From positions 1 through 42,022 of the forward strand of contig JAGQNR010000007.1 in NCBI GenBank assembly GCA_020427985.1: a stretch of 42,022 nt of DNA. Direction: 5' to 3'. The notes below the pieces were generated by a model, which worked only from the letters and a program-made list of their open reading frames with translations, ran no database searches and was not told the origin of the DNA. The translations under genes and the position numbers were made by a program. This DNA comes from Candidatus Saccharimonadota bacterium (GTDB lineage Bacteria > Patescibacteriota > Saccharimonadia > Saccharimonadales > UBA4665). This document shows, piece by piece, positions 5,261 through 25,078 of this stretch (position 1 is the stretch's first letter; each line of letters starts with the position of its first letter).

Positions 5261-5283
5261 ATGAATATGAATTCATATAGTAC
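5254..5283. promoter_or_regulatory. ArsR/SmtB-type palindromic operator
   Basis: Perfect 13-bp arms GTACTATATGAAT and ATTCATATAGTAC surround 4 nt. The ATATGAA...TTCATAT core resembles known ArsR/SmtB operators. It overlaps the -10 hexamer and the first codons of the repressor gene, implying tight autoregulation. Confidence 0.75.
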
Positions 5284-5626
5284 ACATACACCCACCACAT
5301 CTATCGACAATCTAAGTGCTTTATTAAAGTTGCTGGCCGACCCCACTAGGTTAAAGATATTACTGACGCTACACAAAAACGAACACTGTGTAAGTGATTG
5401 CATGTGTCACCTGCCCGGCGTATCACAAAGCCTACTTTCGCATCACCTAGCAGATTTACGCAAAGCCGGACTTGTCGAGGCCAACAAACAAGGCCTAAAG
5501 GTATATTATTCGCTTTCTAACCGCGGGCAAGAAATCTTGTCTGCATTAACTAACTTAAACAAAGGAGAAGAATCCATGAGTACATGTTCATGCCAAAAAT
5601 GCGTTTGCCAAAATTGTGCTTGCTAA
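5267..5626 (+). CDS. ArsR/SmtB-family metal-sensing repressor with Cys-rich tail
   Basis: This 119-aa winged-helix repressor contains LADPTRLKIL (residues 24-33), the recognition helix SQSLLSHHLADL, and a wing ending QGLKVYYSL. Where metal sensors carry ELCVCDL, it has EHCVSDCMC (C41, C45, C47), suggesting thiol-based metal or arsenic sensing. The last 16 residues add six cysteines (C107, C109, C112, C114, C117, C119) in metallothionein-like CxC/CxxC spacing. The start at 5267 is exactly 6 nt after the -10, so the mRNA is probably leaderless and begins inside its own operator; an ATG at 5261 touches the -10. No efflux or reductase gene lies alongside. A terminator follows. Confidence 0.85.
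   Translation: MNSYSTHTPTTSIDNLSALLKLLADPTRLKILLTLHKNEHCVSDCMCHLPGVSQSLLSHHLADLRKAGLVEANKQGLKVYYSLSNRGQEILSALTNLNKGEESMSTCSCQKCVCQNCAC
5576..5626 (+). CDS. Possible internal-start 16-aa Cys-rich peptide
   Basis: Inside arsR, AAAGGAG (5561-5567) lies 8 nt before an in-frame ATG that would give MSTCSCQKCVCQNCAC, a peptide with six cysteines in 16 residues. The site is as good as any ribosome-binding site in the window, although it also encodes residues of the repressor. Either the repressor simply has a Cys-rich tail, or the same message also makes a free metal-binding peptide. The second reading is speculative. Confidence 0.35.
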   Translation: MSTCSCQKCVCQNCAC

Positions 5627-9147: not shown

Positions 9148-10056
9148 CTACTTTCCCATAGACTGCAAGACGGCTTGCCAGATGGTTTTGTCGCCGTGTT
9201 GCCAGCGCCAGTACCACCACTCGCCTCCCCAGAAATCAATCGGGTAAGCCCTTATTGCTTTGGCCCAGGTAATGTTACGCATGATGTGCTGCGGGCTCAT
9301 TGATTTGTCTTGTTCGCGCGCGTCCATTTGCCAGATGGCTTTAGGCCCCCAAGGCTCGCACTGCAGTTCGTGTATGAATACCGGTCGTCGTAACGCATAG
9401 CGAATAAACCACTTGCGCAGACGGTGCAACCACGGCTTCTGCACGGTGCGACGGTAGGCACCCTTTTGATACATGGTAGTGTAGACGCTAAACCCTATCC
9501 CGCCCCAGGGGATTGGCCGCCGTACGGGTACGCCCCAGCCGTTACTGGTACTCATATATATTGGCGTGTGAGGGTCGAGCTCATGCACAAGGGTGTACTC
9601 AGAGCGCAGGCGTTGTCTATCAATCTCTATCTCGCGGCCAAAGTTGCTAAGCAGTGCCTCGTTTTCGAGCTGATAACTAACGATACAGTCTTTGTCACGA
9701 TAGCGCTCCACAACGGCCTGTATGTAGTCGAGGAGTGCTTTGGTTTTTTGTTGAGAGCTGAGCTGCGCTGTCCACGACGGCCAGTGATATTCGGGCCAGC
9801 GGGGCTGTTTAACACCCAGGCAAAGGGTAATGACACCTCCTGCCTTCTCGACCATAGCAATTTGCCAATCTAGCTGTGTAAAGTCATACTTACCCTGCGT
9901 CTTTTCGTGCTCATTCCAGTAGCTCATGATTCGGAACCGCCGCCAACCGTGCCGCAGTAGCCAGCGCAAGCAGGCCTGAGGATCAACGCCAAAGCCACTA
10001 CATTGTTTTAGGCTAAAGCTGACGCCGTATTTTTCTAGATTAATGTGAGGAATCAT
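9148..10056 (-). CDS. TIM-barrel glycoside-hydrolase-like protein
   Basis: This 302-aa protein looks like a clan GH-A (beta/alpha)8 barrel, as in GH5/GH42-like enzymes. An early strand carries FRIMSYWNEHE, a YDFTQLDWQ segment follows, YQLENE (128-133) supplies the Asn-Glu pair expected for the acid/base, and FIHELQCEPWG (227-237) is the candidate nucleophile strand. There is no signal peptide, so it appears cytoplasmic, unlike its paralogue at 10381-11517. TACATT lies 7 nt before the ATG, a near-leaderless start. The substrate is unknown. The two hydrolase-like genes share YQLENE, the HELQ-EPW motif and the QPRWPE strand, so they come from one duplication. Confidence 0.65.
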   Translation of the reverse strand: MIPHINLEKYGVSFSLKQCSGFGVDPQACLRWLLRHGWRRFRIMSYWNEHEKTQGKYDFTQLDWQIAMVEKAGGVITLCLGVKQPRWPEYHWPSWTAQLSSQQKTKALLDYIQAVVERYRDKDCIVSYQLENEALLSNFGREIEIDRQRLRSEYTLVHELDPHTPIYMSTSNGWGVPVRRPIPWGGIGFSVYTTMYQKGAYRRTVQKPWLHRLRKWFIRYALRRPVFIHELQCEPWGPKAIWQMDAREQDKSMSPQHIMRNITWAKAIRAYPIDFWGGEWWYWRWQHGDKTIWQAVLQSMGK

Positions 10057-10110
10057 TGCAAATAATGTAACAGACTTTGTCGATTACGCAGAGTATAGCA
10101 GGTGGTACAC

Positions 10111-10368
10111 ATGATACAAAAAGGATTCTTTCAAGATTTGAAGCAATACATAACCGCCGAGAACGGTGCGCTTGAGATGCGTCTAGAGAAAAGCCTTGAC
10201 GAGAAGCTTGACCAAAAAATTGACGAGAAACTTGCTCCTATCAAGCACCAAATCAATGACCTTGCCGAATGGGTACAAGACGCCATGGCCACTGCCAGTG
10301 ATGCACACCAGACTCAAATCGATGACCATGAATCCCGCATCACTCGACTCGAAGCCAAACTCGCCTAG
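10111..10368 (+). CDS. Small coiled-coil protein, 85 aa
   Basis: This charged protein is mostly helical, with repeated DEKLDQKIDEKL-type heptads in the first half and a RITRLEAKLA end, so an oligomeric coiled coil is likely. AGGTGG lies 5 nt before the ATG at 10111, which I prefer over the in-frame GTG at 10102. TATAGC at 10094-10099 may be its -10. It sits between the two paralogous hydrolase-like genes on the opposite strand. The function is unknown. Confidence 0.6.
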   Translation: MIQKGFFQDLKQYITAENGALEMRLEKSLDEKLDQKIDEKLAPIKHQINDLAEWVQDAMATASDAHQTQIDDHESRITRLEAKLA

Positions 10369-10380
10369 ACGCTGTAGGTT

Positions 10381-11517
10381 CTAGGGCTTACTTTCTTGGC
10401 CGACGCTTTGCAGAGAATCTTGGCTATAGAGTTCGTGCGCGACCTTCCACACGCTCGGGTCGTGGAGGGTATTTTTGCGGTAGTACCAGTATTCGAGCCC
10501 CCACAAGTCAATATGGCGTATGCCGGTTTGTTTGGCAAAGGCTACCGTGCGACGGAACCGCGCAGCATCAAACGACTTGTTTTGTTCGGCCAGGCTAATA
10601 TCGCGCATGCTCTTGCCTCTTGGCGGCCACGGCTCAGTTTGAAGCTCGTGGATGATGCTATCTTGGCCTTTCACAAGCTTTTGTACACCGGCCAATGCCG
10701 CATAGTGCCAGCTGGGGAACGGATAGTCTAGGTAGCGTTTTGTTATAGAGGCGTCCCAAACGCGGCGGTAAAGCGACAATGCATTGATGTCGGCCGTTGG
10801 TGCGCGCAGCGCAAACCCCGCATAATTATTGCTTCGGCTAATAATAACGGGGTGGCCCGGGTCAAGTCGTTTAATGAGCGCCAACTCGTCGGTCAGGCGC
10901 TGCCGGTCAAAGTTATGACAATCACCAAATTTGTTATAAAATTCGTTTTCTAGCTGGTAGCTTTTAAGTGCACTTGAACTCTTGTACCGCTCAACGACAG
11001 CTTGCATGTAGCGCTCTAATTGGGGCTGCCAGGCACTGCGCGGCTGGCTGGTATTATAAAACGTCGGCGCATGACATTCAGGCCAGCGTGGTTGACGCAG
11101 TCCCATAGCCAGCGACACGGTACCGCCAGCTTTTTCGATAGCCGCAAACTGCCAGTCAAGCTGGCTAAAATCATACGTTCCAGGTGAAACTTCTATCTGA
11201 TTCCAATAGCTAACAAGGCGAAACTGCCGTATGCCTAAGTCATTTAATGCAGCATCGAGCACGGCGTGCGGGTCTTCGCCCAAATACTCGGCATAGGCCG
11301 GAATAAAACTGACGCCCAGTTCGTAGGGTTTGCCCGCCTGGGTGCCCTGATACCAGTGCGCGATACCGTAGCTGGCAATGATTCCTGCAGCCATAACCGC
11401 ACAAACATAGCCAAAGAGCTTTGCCCAAAACTTGCCGGTACGCAGCGACTCCCTCCACGAACCTTTTTTAAACCGTCGTCGTAACTGGATGAAGTGCCCT
11501 GCTCTGTTAAATGCCAT
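10381..11517 (-). CDS. Membrane-anchored TIM-barrel glycoside-hydrolase-like protein
   Basis: The 378-aa protein starts with a basic cytoplasmic segment, has one membrane helix at about residues 34-54, and then a GH-A-like barrel outside the cell. Shared with its neighbour at 9148 are FRLVSYWNQIE, YDFSQLDWQ, QPRWPE, SYQLENE (acid/base Glu after Asn) and IIHELQTEPWP (candidate nucleophile). It could trim cell-surface or host/environmental glycans; that is inference. The start at 11517 is supported by TATAAT (11529-11524) exactly 6 nt upstream. The promoter overlaps that of the divergent glycosyltransferase. It converges with the coiled-coil gene. Confidence 0.7.
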   Translation of the reverse strand: MAFNRAGHFIQLRRRFKKGSWRESLRTGKFWAKLFGYVCAVMAAGIIASYGIAHWYQGTQAGKPYELGVSFIPAYAEYLGEDPHAVLDAALNDLGIRQFRLVSYWNQIEVSPGTYDFSQLDWQFAAIEKAGGTVSLAMGLRQPRWPECHAPTFYNTSQPRSAWQPQLERYMQAVVERYKSSSALKSYQLENEFYNKFGDCHNFDRQRLTDELALIKRLDPGHPVIISRSNNYAGFALRAPTADINALSLYRRVWDASITKRYLDYPFPSWHYAALAGVQKLVKGQDSIIHELQTEPWPPRGKSMRDISLAEQNKSFDAARFRRTVAFAKQTGIRHIDLWGLEYWYYRKNTLHDPSVWKVAHELYSQDSLQSVGQESKP

Positions 11518-11519
11518 GC

Positions 11520-11529
11520 TATGATTATA
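11520..11529. promoter_or_regulatory. Interlocked divergent -10 elements
   Basis: Within 10 bp lie TATGAT on the plus strand (11520-11525) and TATAAT on the minus strand (11529-11524). Each is exactly 6 nt before a start codon: GTG at 11532 (+) and ATG at 11517 (-). The two start codons are only 14 bp apart, so the promoters must compete or be co-regulated. Confidence 0.6.
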
Positions 11530-11531
11530 CA

Positions 11532-12374
11532 GTGTCAAAGCAGCTAAGCGTATCGATAATCATCCCGGTCTACAACGAGGAAAAAGCCATTGCTGCTTGT
11601 CTAAATAGTATCGCGATGCAGTCAATTGCTCCGCTTGAAGTTATAGTCGTAAACAACAATTCAACCGATGCTACTTGCGAAATTGCGGCAGCGTATTCAT
11701 TTGTAACTATTATATCTGAACCAAGACAGGGTGTGGTACACGCTCGCAATGCTGGCTTTGCCGCAGCCCGAGGTAGCATTATTGGGCGTATCGATGCCGA
11801 TACGCGCATTGCCTCAGATTGGGTTGAAACCATCCAAGACTTGTTTAATAGGCACCAGCACATTTCAGCCTTGTCTGGGGGAATCAAATACCATAGCGTC
11901 AAAGGACGGCACTTTTGGAACCTCAGTGACGCAATACTTCGTGCCTACCTTGCTGCAGCTTTGCGCCAGGAAATGATATTGCAAGGGGCAAATATGGCTA
12001 TCCGGCGCTCTGATTGGGCATCAATCACAACAGATACCTGCATCGCGTCGGGCATACACGAAGATTTTGACTTGGCTATTCATCTACAGCAATCGAAGCA
12101 TAAAATTATGTACGCTCCAACGCTTAAAGCTAGTATTTGCTTGCGACAGGTTGAGCACAGTTGGGGTGAATTTACTAAATATATCCTATATTGCTCTAGA
12201 ACCTATGCTACACATGGGCGCATACGTCGACTCTGGATGTATCCAGCTCTTTGGCTAGTGATTGCTTGTTATCCTATGTTGCGGTTCTCATATAAATTAC
12301 ATCAGGGCCATGCTAGTAGTAGACAACAACCTTCCCTCGGACTACGTGTTAACCCAGCGACGTTTGTCGATTAA
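11532..12374 (+). CDS. Family 2 glycosyltransferase
   Basis: The 280-aa protein is a GT-A fold enzyme: VSIIIPVYNEE at the N terminus, VVNNNSTDAT (nucleotide-sugar binding), GVVHARNAGFAAARG, and IDADT with the metal-binding DAD at about 88-90. GIHEDFDLAIHL later supplies the ED acceptor-site motif. A hydrophobic segment near residues 235-255 (YPALWLVIACYP) may tether it to the membrane. It would transfer a sugar from a nucleotide donor to a lipid or surface glycan. The GTG at 11532 is preferred because TATGAT lies 6 nt upstream; an ATG at 11511 would add 7 residues but lies upstream of the -10. The neighbouring hydrolases suggest a glycan locus. Confidence 0.85.
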   Translation: MSKQLSVSIIIPVYNEEKAIAACLNSIAMQSIAPLEVIVVNNNSTDATCEIAAAYSFVTIISEPRQGVVHARNAGFAAARGSIIGRIDADTRIASDWVETIQDLFNRHQHISALSGGIKYHSVKGRHFWNLSDAILRAYLAAALRQEMILQGANMAIRRSDWASITTDTCIASGIHEDFDLAIHLQQSKHKIMYAPTLKASICLRQVEHSWGEFTKYILYCSRTYATHGRIRRLWMYPALWLVIACYPMLRFSYKLHQGHASSRQQPSLGLRVNPATFVD

Positions 12375-13516: not shown

Positions 13517-14086
13517 TTAGTAGTCGATACCTTTATTGGCAAGGTACTTATCATCATAGTGATGGCGGATTTTAGCCATATCGGTGGCAATGTCAACAAG
13601 TGGGAGGAGCTTTTTAGGAAAGTTTCGTCCTGTCAGACAGAGGCTGGTTGTGGGGTGTCTTTTTTGTATAAGCGCCTTGAGCTGGGTAGTGCTAAGAAGG
13701 CCATCGGCCACGGCATTATTTATTTCGTCGCAAATAACCAGGTGAAACTTACCAGAGGTAGCAGCATTAAATGCGGTGAAATAGGTTTCGGCTGCCGCTT
13801 GCTTGTGCTGATCGGTGGTAATGCCTTCGGCACTTATGTCGCCAGCTGCGTAAAAGCCTTTGCCACCCTTATAAAACAGCAAATCATCGCCAAACACTGG
13901 CTGGATATCTCGTATAAAAGCATGCTCACCTACTCCCCAGTGTTTTATAAATTGTATAAATGCTACCTTCCAGCGGTTGCCCAGCGCACGTGCCATCAGG
14001 CCCACAGCGGCTGAGGTTTTGCCTTTGCCTTCGCCGGTGTACACCACTACCACAGATTCTTTGGTCTTATAATCTTCAAAACTCAT
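13517..14086 (-). CDS. btuR: Cob(I)alamin adenosyltransferase, CobA/BtuR type
   Basis: The 189-aa protein has the P-loop VYTGEGKGKTSAAVGL (residues 15-30), VAFIQF after strand 2, LVICDEINNA (Walker-B-like strand) and an LTGR...LLPLVDIATDM stretch ending with GIDY, all hallmarks of CobA/BtuR. The enzyme transfers adenosyl from ATP to cob(I)alamin. No other cobalamin gene is seen here, so it would act on salvaged corrinoid or has drifted in function. It sits between two hypothetical genes in one direction (14613 to 13030). No clear -10 or ribosome-binding site decides the start, but the P-loop position fits the ATG at 14086. Confidence 0.85.
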   Translation of the reverse strand: MSFEDYKTKESVVVVYTGEGKGKTSAAVGLMARALGNRWKVAFIQFIKHWGVGEHAFIRDIQPVFGDDLLFYKGGKGFYAAGDISAEGITTDQHKQAAAETYFTAFNAATSGKFHLVICDEINNAVADGLLSTTQLKALIQKRHPTTSLCLTGRNFPKKLLPLVDIATDMAKIRHHYDDKYLANKGIDY

Positions 14087-21952: not shown

Positions 21953-22378
21953 ATGCGTTTAAAGTTGGTTACCCTATCAGGCACAAAATTTGACGAAGAA
22001 ATCTATGAAGCGACAATTCCGACTGTTGACGGTGAGATTGCGGTGTTCCCTGACCACGAGCCACTTGTAACCCTGGCAAAAGGTGGAGTCATTACCGTGC
22101 GCAAGCACAAGACAGCGTCTGTCGACGATGATGACTTTTTTGCCATTAGCGGTGGCGTGGTCGAAATTAATCCAGGTGAAATTAAAGTTCTTGTCGACGA
22201 AGCCGACCATGGTGACGACATAGTAGAAGCCGAAAGCCAGGCCGCACTCGACCGCGCACTTTCACTCCGCGATGAGGCCAAAGACCAGGTTGAGCTTGAA
22301 AAAGCCCACCAGTTGGTCGACCGTCATATGGTTCGACTCAAGGTGGCCGATCTTCATCGCCGCCGTCGTCGCTCTTGA
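21953..22378 (+). CDS. atpC: F1Fo ATP synthase subunit epsilon
   Basis: The 141-aa protein has the N-terminal beta-sandwich (LKLVTLSGTKFDEEIYEATIP, then FPDHEPLVTLAKGGVI and ISGGVVEINPGEIKVLVDEA) and a C-terminal helical pair (AALDRALSLRDEAKD ... HMVRLKVADLHRRRRRS) of the type that can inhibit hydrolysis. The end is strongly basic. The stop codon TGA lies within the -35 TTGACA of the next promoter. Confidence 0.92.
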   Translation: MRLKLVTLSGTKFDEEIYEATIPTVDGEIAVFPDHEPLVTLAKGGVITVRKHKTASVDDDDFFAISGGVVEINPGEIKVLVDEADHGDDIVEAESQAALDRALSLRDEAKDQVELEKAHQLVDRHMVRLKVADLHRRRRRS

Positions 22379-22403
22379 CAAATTTATAATTTAGGAGTAT
22401 AAT
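22375..22403 (+). promoter_or_regulatory. Consensus promoter overlapping the atpC stop codon
   Basis: TTGACA (22375-22380), exactly 17 nt, TATAAT (22398-22403): a perfect match to the sigma-70 consensus. TGA of atpC is part of the -35. The start codon of the next gene lies 10 nt beyond the -10, leaving a leader of about 3 nt. GGAG at 22394-22397 lies upstream of the expected transcription start and so cannot serve as a ribosome-binding site from this promoter. Confidence 0.85.
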
Positions 22404-22413
22404 AAACAATACT

Positions 22414-23271
22414 ATGAGTTTCACTGGGTCAGAAGTTGAGCTAGCCAGAAGTGTCGAGTTTTTTCAACAACCAACAAGCTATAAGCGTTTTTGGTTAAAT
22501 CGTCACGCACAAATACCTGAAGGGTGTATTGACCCAAGAGATGAAGACCGTCCCGAGGTACATATTATTCGCCAGACACCAGGAGGTGCAGCCGGCCGAG
22601 CGGTGGATACGGCGCTGTCACTCTATGCTTACGACAAAACAGAAGTTGGGCTATGCGAATCGCTTGCGTATGATGAGTCGCTTGGACATTCTATGGTCGC
22701 AACAGCGCACCGCCGCTGTGCATATGACCTTGGTCGCGAGAAAATTATTGATGAAATCATCGACCCCTCTGACTTTACCAAAGAAGCCCTGCATCGTATT
22801 TCCAGAGAGAGTAACTTAGACTATGCTCAGGTTATAAAGCGCGTAGATGCGCTGCGGCTTGCAGCCGAAGCAGTCAAAAAAACAATTGTGAGCGTAGAGA
22901 GTGATGCTTTTTTAGAAAGTGTTAATAGTCTCTTTTCTGCCCATAGTCCGGTTGCTGATGTCAAGGGCGACAATCAAGCCGGGGTGTATATTTGGAATCA
23001 CCATCCGTATGTTGGGCTTGACAGAAATAAAGTGCACCGCGGCAAAACACCGCTTGTTGCGCACGCTTACCATGACAATGTGCGTGCCACAATCGTATCA
23101 GTAAGAAGTACACCAAATATGCCAACTTCTCTGCGTGATTTGCGGATAGCAGCAGTTATACTACGCTCTGCCGTTACACCAGCTGTGGTGGTGGGCAATG
23201 ATGCTCGAGCACGATTGCTTCATGTTAAGCAAGGTCGTGATGGGCTTCTTGTTGAAGAACAGCTGCGATAG
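22414..23271 (+). CDS. Carbonic-anhydrase-like metal protein, paralogue 1
   Basis: The 285-aa protein has GCIDPRDE (C38, D40, R42), a glycine-rich PGGAAG (56-61), then H92, H99 and C102 in AHRRCAYD. CxDxR followed by HxxC is the zinc-site layout of beta-carbonic anhydrases; the PGGA segment is also reminiscent of cadmium carbonic anhydrases (CDCA). The second half (after about 150) is unlike either and contains IWNHHPYVG and LVAHAYHDN. It might hydrate CO2 or be a related non-catalytic metal protein. The gene follows the ATP synthase operon but has its own consensus promoter and a near-leaderless start. Its neighbour at 23319 is a divergent copy. Confidence 0.5.
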   Translation: MSFTGSEVELARSVEFFQQPTSYKRFWLNRHAQIPEGCIDPRDEDRPEVHIIRQTPGGAAGRAVDTALSLYAYDKTEVGLCESLAYDESLGHSMVATAHRRCAYDLGREKIIDEIIDPSDFTKEALHRISRESNLDYAQVIKRVDALRLAAEAVKKTIVSVESDAFLESVNSLFSAHSPVADVKGDNQAGVYIWNHHPYVGLDRNKVHRGKTPLVAHAYHDNVRATIVSVRSTPNMPTSLRDLRIAAVILRSAVTPAVVVGNDARARLLHVKQGRDGLLVEEQLR

Positions 23272-23281
23272 TTTGACGTTG

Positions 23282-23310
23282 TTGACTCTGTGTATCCACT
23301 GACGTACTAT
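23282..23310 (+). promoter_or_regulatory. Promoter of the second carbonic-anhydrase-like gene
   Basis: TTGACT (23282-23287), 17 nt, TACTAT (23305-23310). The ATG at 23319 is 8 nt beyond the -10, so the transcript would have a leader of 0-2 nt. No ribosome-binding site is present. Confidence 0.7.
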
Positions 23311-23318
23311 CTCTAGTT

Positions 23319-24224
23319 ATGACTACAATTTCAGATCTCGGAACAATTACCAACCAAACTAATTGGCGTGGAGGTATTTCGGCTAAAAGGATGCTTGCCG
23401 ATGGTTTTGTGCAAGCTACTACACTCGACATAGCTGCTCGGCAAATGGATACTTTTTTTGTAGCCGAGAACCCACGGGCTGAAGCGCGTTGTATTGATGG
23501 CCGATGCAACGACAACCTGACAGATGATACTCTCGGGGCACAAGTACCTGGCGGTACTCCTGGTTCTGCTCTGGCGTATCGGCTTGGAGTAATTATTGAT
23601 GATTTTTCGACCGGCCGTTTTACAGATGATGCTCATAGGATGCTTGAACAATCGCTCGAGCTTGGGTTTACGCCTGGTGACCACCGCGATACGCACGGTC
23701 ATGGTACCGGATGCGGGGCTATCGACAAAATGGATCAGGCTTTACAAGCACTAGTGGACCCTATGCTCGTTGCCGACAATGAACGCTTAGTGCGAGCAGT
23801 GCTTGGGGAGGCATTTGACGAGAGTATTTATATGCACGTTGTCGGCGCTGGTGTTATTTTAGCCGGACGAGCCGACGAATATTTACAAGAACGTGAAAAA
23901 AGTATTGAAGAAATTGAGGCAAGTCTACAACACCAGGTTATAGTCCTTGAAGGCGACCATCATGAGTGTTTTATGGTGCTCAATACTGTGCCGGGGACAA
24001 CCTTTGCTACCAAACGATTTAGTGATACATTTCAAGGTACACAAGCATTTAACTATGATATTTGGCGCACCTTTGAACTGGCCGAAAAGCTTTTTCCGCT
24101 GCGTGCCGACCAACACAAAAAAATGCGATTTATCCATGCACGTGTGGCCACAGCAATTGCAACGCTTATGGTGCTGACCGATGGCAGCCAAAGACTACTG
24201 GTTCGTACGGTCGAAAAAGAGTAA
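23319..24224 (+). CDS. Carbonic-anhydrase-like metal protein, paralogue 2
   Basis: The 301-aa protein repeats the layout of its neighbour with a fuller motif set: CIDGRCND (C58, D60, R62), VPGGTPGSALAYRLG (76-90), and DHRDTHGHGTGCGAIDK (H122, H126, H128, C132). The C...H...C ligands and CxDGR motif fit beta-CA/CDCA-type carbonic anhydrases; the HGTGCG spacing is closer to CDCA than to plain beta-CA. The rest (LEGDHHECFMVLNT; a C-terminal helical part) is unrecognised. It would be soluble and cytoplasmic. Activity is not proven by motifs. No other carbon-fixation gene is seen, so roles in pH or bicarbonate supply are possible. Confidence 0.55.
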   Translation: MTTISDLGTITNQTNWRGGISAKRMLADGFVQATTLDIAARQMDTFFVAENPRAEARCIDGRCNDNLTDDTLGAQVPGGTPGSALAYRLGVIIDDFSTGRFTDDAHRMLEQSLELGFTPGDHRDTHGHGTGCGAIDKMDQALQALVDPMLVADNERLVRAVLGEAFDESIYMHVVGAGVILAGRADEYLQEREKSIEEIEASLQHQVIVLEGDHHECFMVLNTVPGTTFATKRFSDTFQGTQAFNYDIWRTFELAEKLFPLRADQHKKMRFIHARVATAIATLMVLTDGSQRLLVRTVEKE

Positions 24225-24292: not shown

Positions 24293-25078
24293 ATGTTTCG
24301 TAAAAACACACTGGCTATGCTTGTCAGTGAATTTTTGGGGACTGGCTTACTGGCATTGACGGTATTGGCCATGCTCCGTTCACAAGGTGGCACTTTTAAT
24401 ACAGCCGCTGCAGCTGGGCTCATTGTGGGTCTTATGGTGCTCGCAGTTGGTGCAATTTCTGGGGCGGTACTCAACCCTGCCGTAACGGTAGGCTTATGGT
24501 CTGTTCGTAAGCTTCGCTCACTACAAGCTTTGTCATACATTTTGGTACAGTTTGCTGGTGCGGCTGCTGCCTGGTATGCATTTGTTTACTTTACCAAGAT
24601 TGACACCAGCACTATTAAGCACGAAGATTTAACGAAGATGTCGGGACGAGTGTTCTTTGCTGAGCTGCTTGGCACCTTTGTCTTTTGTTTTGCGATTGCT
24701 GCTGCGCTTTATCAGCGCCTAAGTAGCGGTGTTAAAGCCTTTGTGATTGGTGGTGGCTTGATGCTCGGTATCGTTGCGGCCAGTCTTGGTTCTGCCGGTG
24801 CAGTTAACCCTGCAGTCGCTTTTGCTATTCAGCAATGGAACGTTTGGGCATATATGCTTGCTCCTTTGCTTGGCGCAGTACTTGGTTTTACTTTGTACAA
24901 CTTGCTTTTTGTACAAACCGAACTTGCCGAAGTTGCTGAAGCACGAGAAGAAGTTGCAGCGGTAGCAGTGACTGAATCAGTTGTCACCCGCAGCGCTGCA
25001 AAGCCTGTGCGTGCAACGGCTAAAAAAGCACCTGCCAAGAAGGCACCAGCACGCAAACGTGTTGCTACAAAGAAATAG
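24293..25078 (+). CDS. Aquaporin (MIP family) with Lys/Ala-rich tail
   Basis: The 261-aa protein has six membrane helices and both half-helix motifs: SGAVLNPAVT (NPA at 61-63) and SAGAVNPAVAF (NPA at 172-174). In most aquaporins the second motif is NPAR, with the Arg forming the selectivity filter; here it is Val, so the pore should differ in selectivity. After the last helix (about 205) a 50-residue tail ends in histone-H1-like AKKAPAKKAPARKR repeats, probably cytoplasmic. GGAGG about 10 nt upstream marks a leadered start. A strong terminator follows. Confidence 0.85.
   Translation: MFRKNTLAMLVSEFLGTGLLALTVLAMLRSQGGTFNTAAAAGLIVGLMVLAVGAISGAVLNPAVTVGLWSVRKLRSLQALSYILVQFAGAAAAWYAFVYFTKIDTSTIKHEDLTKMSGRVFFAELLGTFVFCFAIAAALYQRLSSGVKAFVIGGGLMLGIVAASLGSAGAVNPAVAFAIQQWNVWAYMLAPLLGAVLGFTLYNLLFVQTELAEVAEAREEVAAVAVTESVVTRSAAKPVRATAKKAPAKKAPARKRVATKK

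Follow-up and report, generated by a model that had tools for sequence, protein, structure and literature searches.

What do the two carbonic-anhydrase-like proteins encoded in tandem beside the ATP synthase of this Saccharibacterium do, and to which enzyme class do they belong? The window, meaning here the whole 42,022-nucleotide stretch that was analysed, is contig C43 of a genome of 978,274 bases in 45 contigs (97.6% complete), whose size, gene content and relatives named as Candidatus Saccharibacteria indicate Saccharimonadia. A reading of the sequence alone had seen two paralogous genes of this kind in tandem near the ATP synthase, and the pair is indeed there. The open reading frames P1 and P2 lie downstream of atpC, in the order atpC, P1, P2, MIP/aquaporin-like gene, with a promoter-like site before each of the two:

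21953 to 22378, + strand: atpC, ATP synthase epsilon subunit (PF02823, E 1.6e-17), adjoining P1 upstream
22375 to 22403, + strand: sigma-70-type promoter-like site TTGACA-17-TATAAT, 12/12 (a consensus match only), overlapping the atpC stop
22414 to 23271, + strand: P1, 285 aa, divergent CDCA-like paralogue with an intact open reading frame
23282 to 23310, + strand: weak promoter-like site TTGACT-17-TACTAT before P2, 9/12, sites of this kind being about as numerous as expected from shuffles
23319 to 24224, + strand: P2, 301 aa, zeta-class carbonic anhydrase homologue
24293 to 25078, + strand: MIP/aquaporin-like channel (PF00230, E 2.8e-22), adjoining P2 downstream

After the channel gene comes a UvrD-like helicase gene on the opposite strand, and past this lie genes for an NDH-2-like protein, an FAD-linked oxidase of the D-lactate-dehydrogenase type and a cyo-type terminal oxidase. 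Aerobic respiratory genes of such kind are already known from a soil Saccharibacterium (PMC6031116). Each gene of the pair had also been credited with a strong promoter of its own. This holds for P1 at the level of a consensus match, its site ending 10 nt upstream of the ATG, the sole such case among the 1380 ATGs of the window. A strong P2 promoter was rejected, as the 9/12 site is at chance level. Comparable promoter placement is absent upstream of most relatives.

For P2, profile, predicted fold and individual residues point to the zeta class, whose member CDCA1 of Thalassiosira weissflogii (3bob, 3boh, 3uk8, 7bez; PF18484) is the closest known system. The single meaningful Pfam match of P2 is CDCA (PF18484; E 1.4e-6), which scores 28.5 bits against the protein, 0.7 below the curated cut-off, and 29.4 bits, above the cut-off, against P2 as a frame of the genome. 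The same profile is matched by 21 of the 23 members of the P2 family. When the PDB was searched with P2-family profiles, the significant matches were CDCA1 chains only (E 1.2e-7 and 1.9e-8). An AlphaFold2 model of P2 (pLDDT 92.8, pTM 0.91) returned CDCA1 as the first six Foldseek matches (prob 1.00, E 6.6e-6), and this predicted model aligns with CDCA1 3bob at Z 16.9 over 193 residues and 3.1 A; the only other protein in the structural comparison is a beta-class enzyme, at Z 4.0. Neither P2 nor its 23-member family is named in NCBIfam, and a plasmid search with P2 matched none. We file P2, on this profile and model evidence, as a putative bacterial member of the zeta class.

The residues can be compared one by one in an alignment of P2, its relatives and the second repeat of CDCA1 (CDCA1-R2). 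C58, H122 and C132 of P2, the putative metal ligands, fall one-to-one on C263, H315 and C325, which we take to be the crystallographic ligands of the diatom enzyme; the Asp/Arg dyad D60/R62 falls on D265/R267. In lobe 2, H214, E216 and W249 align with H369, E371 and W398, and G212-x-H214-x-E216, N222 and W249 are identical in the diatom repeat; the two agree at every position examined in the metal site, the dyad and lobe 2. The metal site of CDCA1 comprises two cysteines and one histidine, and most of its substrate-binding residues are in the four-stranded lobe (PMC4413181). The sequence-only reading had noticed C-x-D-x-R, a PGG(A/T) loop, a His and a Cys in both proteins, and these are seen, with PGGA and PGGT loops. 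It was also right that ligand spacing differs, with His-X2-Cys in P1 versus His-X9-Cys in P2, and wrong in its choice of P2 histidine. Because of the alignment to CDCA1-R2, H128 of the "HGTGC" motif is not the equivalent ligand and was rejected; H122 is, with the same His-X9-Cys spacing as H315/C325. The alignment likewise makes the C-terminal half of P2 lobe 2, and alignments of the predicted models of both proteins indicate that the long C-terminal parts once described as unrecognised correspond to this lobe of the CDCA fold. Failure of the Cys and His residues to converge on one site is countered, if only indirectly, by the superposition of the whole predicted model and the one-to-one alignment.

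P2 and CDCA1 thus share a predicted two-lobe fold, the Cys-His-Cys site with His-X9-Cys, the dyad, the PGG loop, G-x-H-x-E, the Asn and the Trp, at an identity of only ~19%. They differ in architecture and setting: P2 is a single domain of 301 aa from a bacterium, cytoplasmic by its sequence, whereas CDCA1, a cadmium/zinc enzyme of a marine diatom, consists of three repeats of ~210 aa. The zeta class has been considered restricted to diatoms (PMC7215798) or, with other classes, limited to a few microalgae and protists (PMC8132391), and a survey of prokaryotic genomes, in its accessible part, tallies zeta-type Pfam genes with no further description (PMC10880623). Our literature searches on Saccharibacteria with carbonic anhydrase or aquaporin found nothing on topic.

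P1 is a more distant matter. Compared profile to profile, P1 and P2 are related with a probability of 95.6% (E 1.3e-8). In reciprocal profile searches against a database with 2000 shuffled sequences added, 20 of 22 P2 relatives scored above every shuffle, as did three of five P1 relatives clearly and a fourth barely, with a partial fifth below. Judged by these sequence comparisons, the paralogy of P1 and P2 exceeds chance. P1 has no Pfam match at E 10, and CDCA is unmatched by the four-member P1 family at E 1; the CDCA profile is therefore matched by P2 and not by P1, and PF00484, the beta-class profile, by neither. A model of P1 (pLDDT 87.3), built from an alignment that included P2 relatives, aligns with CDCA1 3boh at Z 13.8 over 176 residues and 2.8 A; CDCA was not found when the model was searched by Foldseek alone.

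The putative metal ligands of P1 are C38, H99 and C102, with D40/R42 as the dyad. Unlike CDCA1, it has N187, A189 and R224 in place of the lobe-2 His, Glu and Trp, and its His-X2-Cys loop (H99/C102) is short. Its relatives (G008, G014, G025, whose contig is shared with L026, and L036) come from divergent genomes, are 26-39% identical to P1 and each adjoin atpC or a P2-family gene. Across the five P1 members the ligands and R42 are kept, the D40 position is Glu once, four have the short His-Cys loop, and all five have lost the His, Glu and Trp of lobe 2. We file P1 as an apparent divergent relative, with neither a CDCA profile match nor the lobe-2 residues; it is best read as a putative metal-binding duplicate whose substrate lobe has been dismantled. 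A parallel occurs at L041 (8693-9940), where a second tandem P2-related copy of 415 aa with CPDPR has G-P-N-N-A in place of G-x-H-x-E, the same His/Glu loss as in P1.

How widely is this arrangement kept? In a sample of 147 genomes of the class, 33 have a P2-family match and 114 do not, and the P1 profile scores in two. In 25 of the 33 positive genomes the family member follows atpC on the same strand, at most 4 kb away, and 12 of the 33 have an MIP gene no more than 300 bp downstream of it. A family member is present in 32 of the 100 genomes that have an ATP-synt_DE_N match and in 1 of the 47 that lack one (p 1.2e-5); for COX1 the figures are 22 of 53 genomes with it versus 11 of 94 without (p 6e-5), both values being inflated by shared ancestry. 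When 287 genomes spanning the phylum were searched by profile, the one match beyond the order was weak and came from G400. This match (L065 1135-1767) is a 210-aa, single-repeat CDCA-like protein of a more distant phylum member; searched against the PDB, it matches CDCA1 best, and the alignment covers the entire His-X9-Cys stretch.

P2-family genes are also found on Actinomycetota-titled contigs (L027, L029, L031, L032, L035, L037), mostly of GC 0.63-0.73. These relatives are 40-47% identical to P2 and are not near ATP synthase genes. Their branches intermingle with those of the Saccharibacterial copies in the tree, but an AU test does not reject their monophyly (p 0.21), and gene transfer is therefore a suggestion and not a demonstrated event. 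Cultivated Saccharibacteria have their hosts in Actinomycetota, and exchange of the P2 family with this phylum is possible on this sequence evidence. A conserved single-domain bacterial zeta form, shared with that phylum and the leading carbonic anhydrase candidate of a reduced genome, is relevant to where the class came from. A frame at L045 (~10001-10432), from the isolate Propioniciclava sinopodophylli, keeps GDHRD...GCGAID and has lost the recognisable CxDGR part; it is apparently a decayed remnant. Within the analysed genome (G000), a third family copy on contig C42 (46011-46701, - strand; L024, L067, L068) is divided between two frames and lacks a start close to CxDGR; it lies away from ATP synthase and looks like a broken gene.

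Profile searches of the genome for alpha-, beta- and gamma-type carbonic anhydrases found none. With these three classes covered, P1 and P2 are the only candidates found, and P2 is therefore the best carbonic anhydrase candidate of the genome. We consider it likely that P2 is a zeta-class CO2/bicarbonate enzyme, probably the sole carbonic anhydrase, and that P1 is a duplicate keeping the metal site. What we infer about metal binding, catalysis, the parts played by the dyad and by lobe 2, physiology and the function of P1 is as follows. In the two-lobed single chain of P2, C58, H122 and C132 would coordinate Zn (or Cd), the D60/R62 dyad would sit next to the metal, and lobe 2, through G-x-H-x-E and the Trp, would complete the pocket. 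A metal-bound hydroxide would then interconvert CO2 and bicarbonate in the cytoplasm, a reaction proposed because all examined positions are conserved. As probably the only carbonic anhydrase of the cell, P2 may supply bicarbonate and buffer the cytoplasm beside proton-pumping enzymes, a role suggested because gene order is conserved. P1, with its metal site kept, its loop short as in beta-class enzymes and its lobe-2 residues gone, probably binds metal, with CO2 hydration that may be reduced, altered or lost; it may act together with P2 or be a specialised form of it. The conserved neighbourhood is also consistent with coupling of carbonic anhydrase to proton flow, although the Actinomycetota copies are not beside ATP synthase. 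A broader proposal makes P2 the catalyst and P1 its partner or a sensor of CO2/bicarbonate or of metal. The pair would share an island with the ATP synthase, the respiratory genes and the aquaporin-like channel, and the diatom cadmium enzyme would derive from bacterial genes of this kind; as a whole this proposal seems unlikely.

The same scaffold could instead serve another small substrate in both proteins, such as COS or CS2, or act as some other hydrolase. Beta-class-related folds have been recruited for COS and CS2 hydrolysis, the P2 family is patchy (33 of 147 genomes), unlike an essential carbonic anhydrase, and P1 has already lost pocket residues. Every examined position of P2 nevertheless equals that of the diatom enzyme, and the alpha, beta and gamma profiles offer no alternative candidate, which leaves a change of substrate distinctly unlikely. 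The losses in lobe 2 bear equally on the idea that P1 is a non-functional duplicate in decay, as do its rarity (2 of 147 genomes) and the frame-broken third copy in the same genome. Against this stand the intact P1 reading frame, the 12/12 promoter-like site upstream of it and the same metal ligands in five divergent genomes. Since the ligands are kept at such divergence, plain decay is disfavoured, and we regard it as very unlikely.

Assignment of both proteins to the beta class, to which the sequence-only reading had likened the metal site alongside CDCA, is hardly tenable. Like P1 and P2, beta-class enzymes have a Cys-His-Cys site and an Asp/Arg dyad, and C-x-D-x-R, the Gly-rich loop and the His-X2-Cys spacing that P1 shares with them all favour kinship. 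But PF00484 (Pro_CA) is absent from P1, P2 and the whole genome (the control matched in 9 of 14), structural comparison gives beta-class enzymes Z 4.0 versus 13-17 for CDCA1, and both lobes lie here within one chain. The assignment was rejected on the lack of a PF00484 match and the low Z; the CDCA half of the comparison is the part that survives, for P2.

If P2 is a zeta-class enzyme and P1 its metal-binding duplicate, the two offer small proteins for studying how zeta carbonic anhydrases choose between Zn and Cd, with P1 as a natural variant that is free of the lobe-2 residues.

Elsewhere in the window, an ArsR-family regulator with a Cys-rich tail (CSCQKCVCQNCAC; 5261-5626, + strand) is possibly a metal sensor. 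Two adjoining paralogous glycoside-hydrolase-like genes (9148-10056 and 10381-11538, - strand) have weak Glyco_hydro_42 matches, and a corrinoid adenosyltransferase, BtuR/CobO (13517-14086, - strand; E 4.4e-45), is notable for so reduced a genome.
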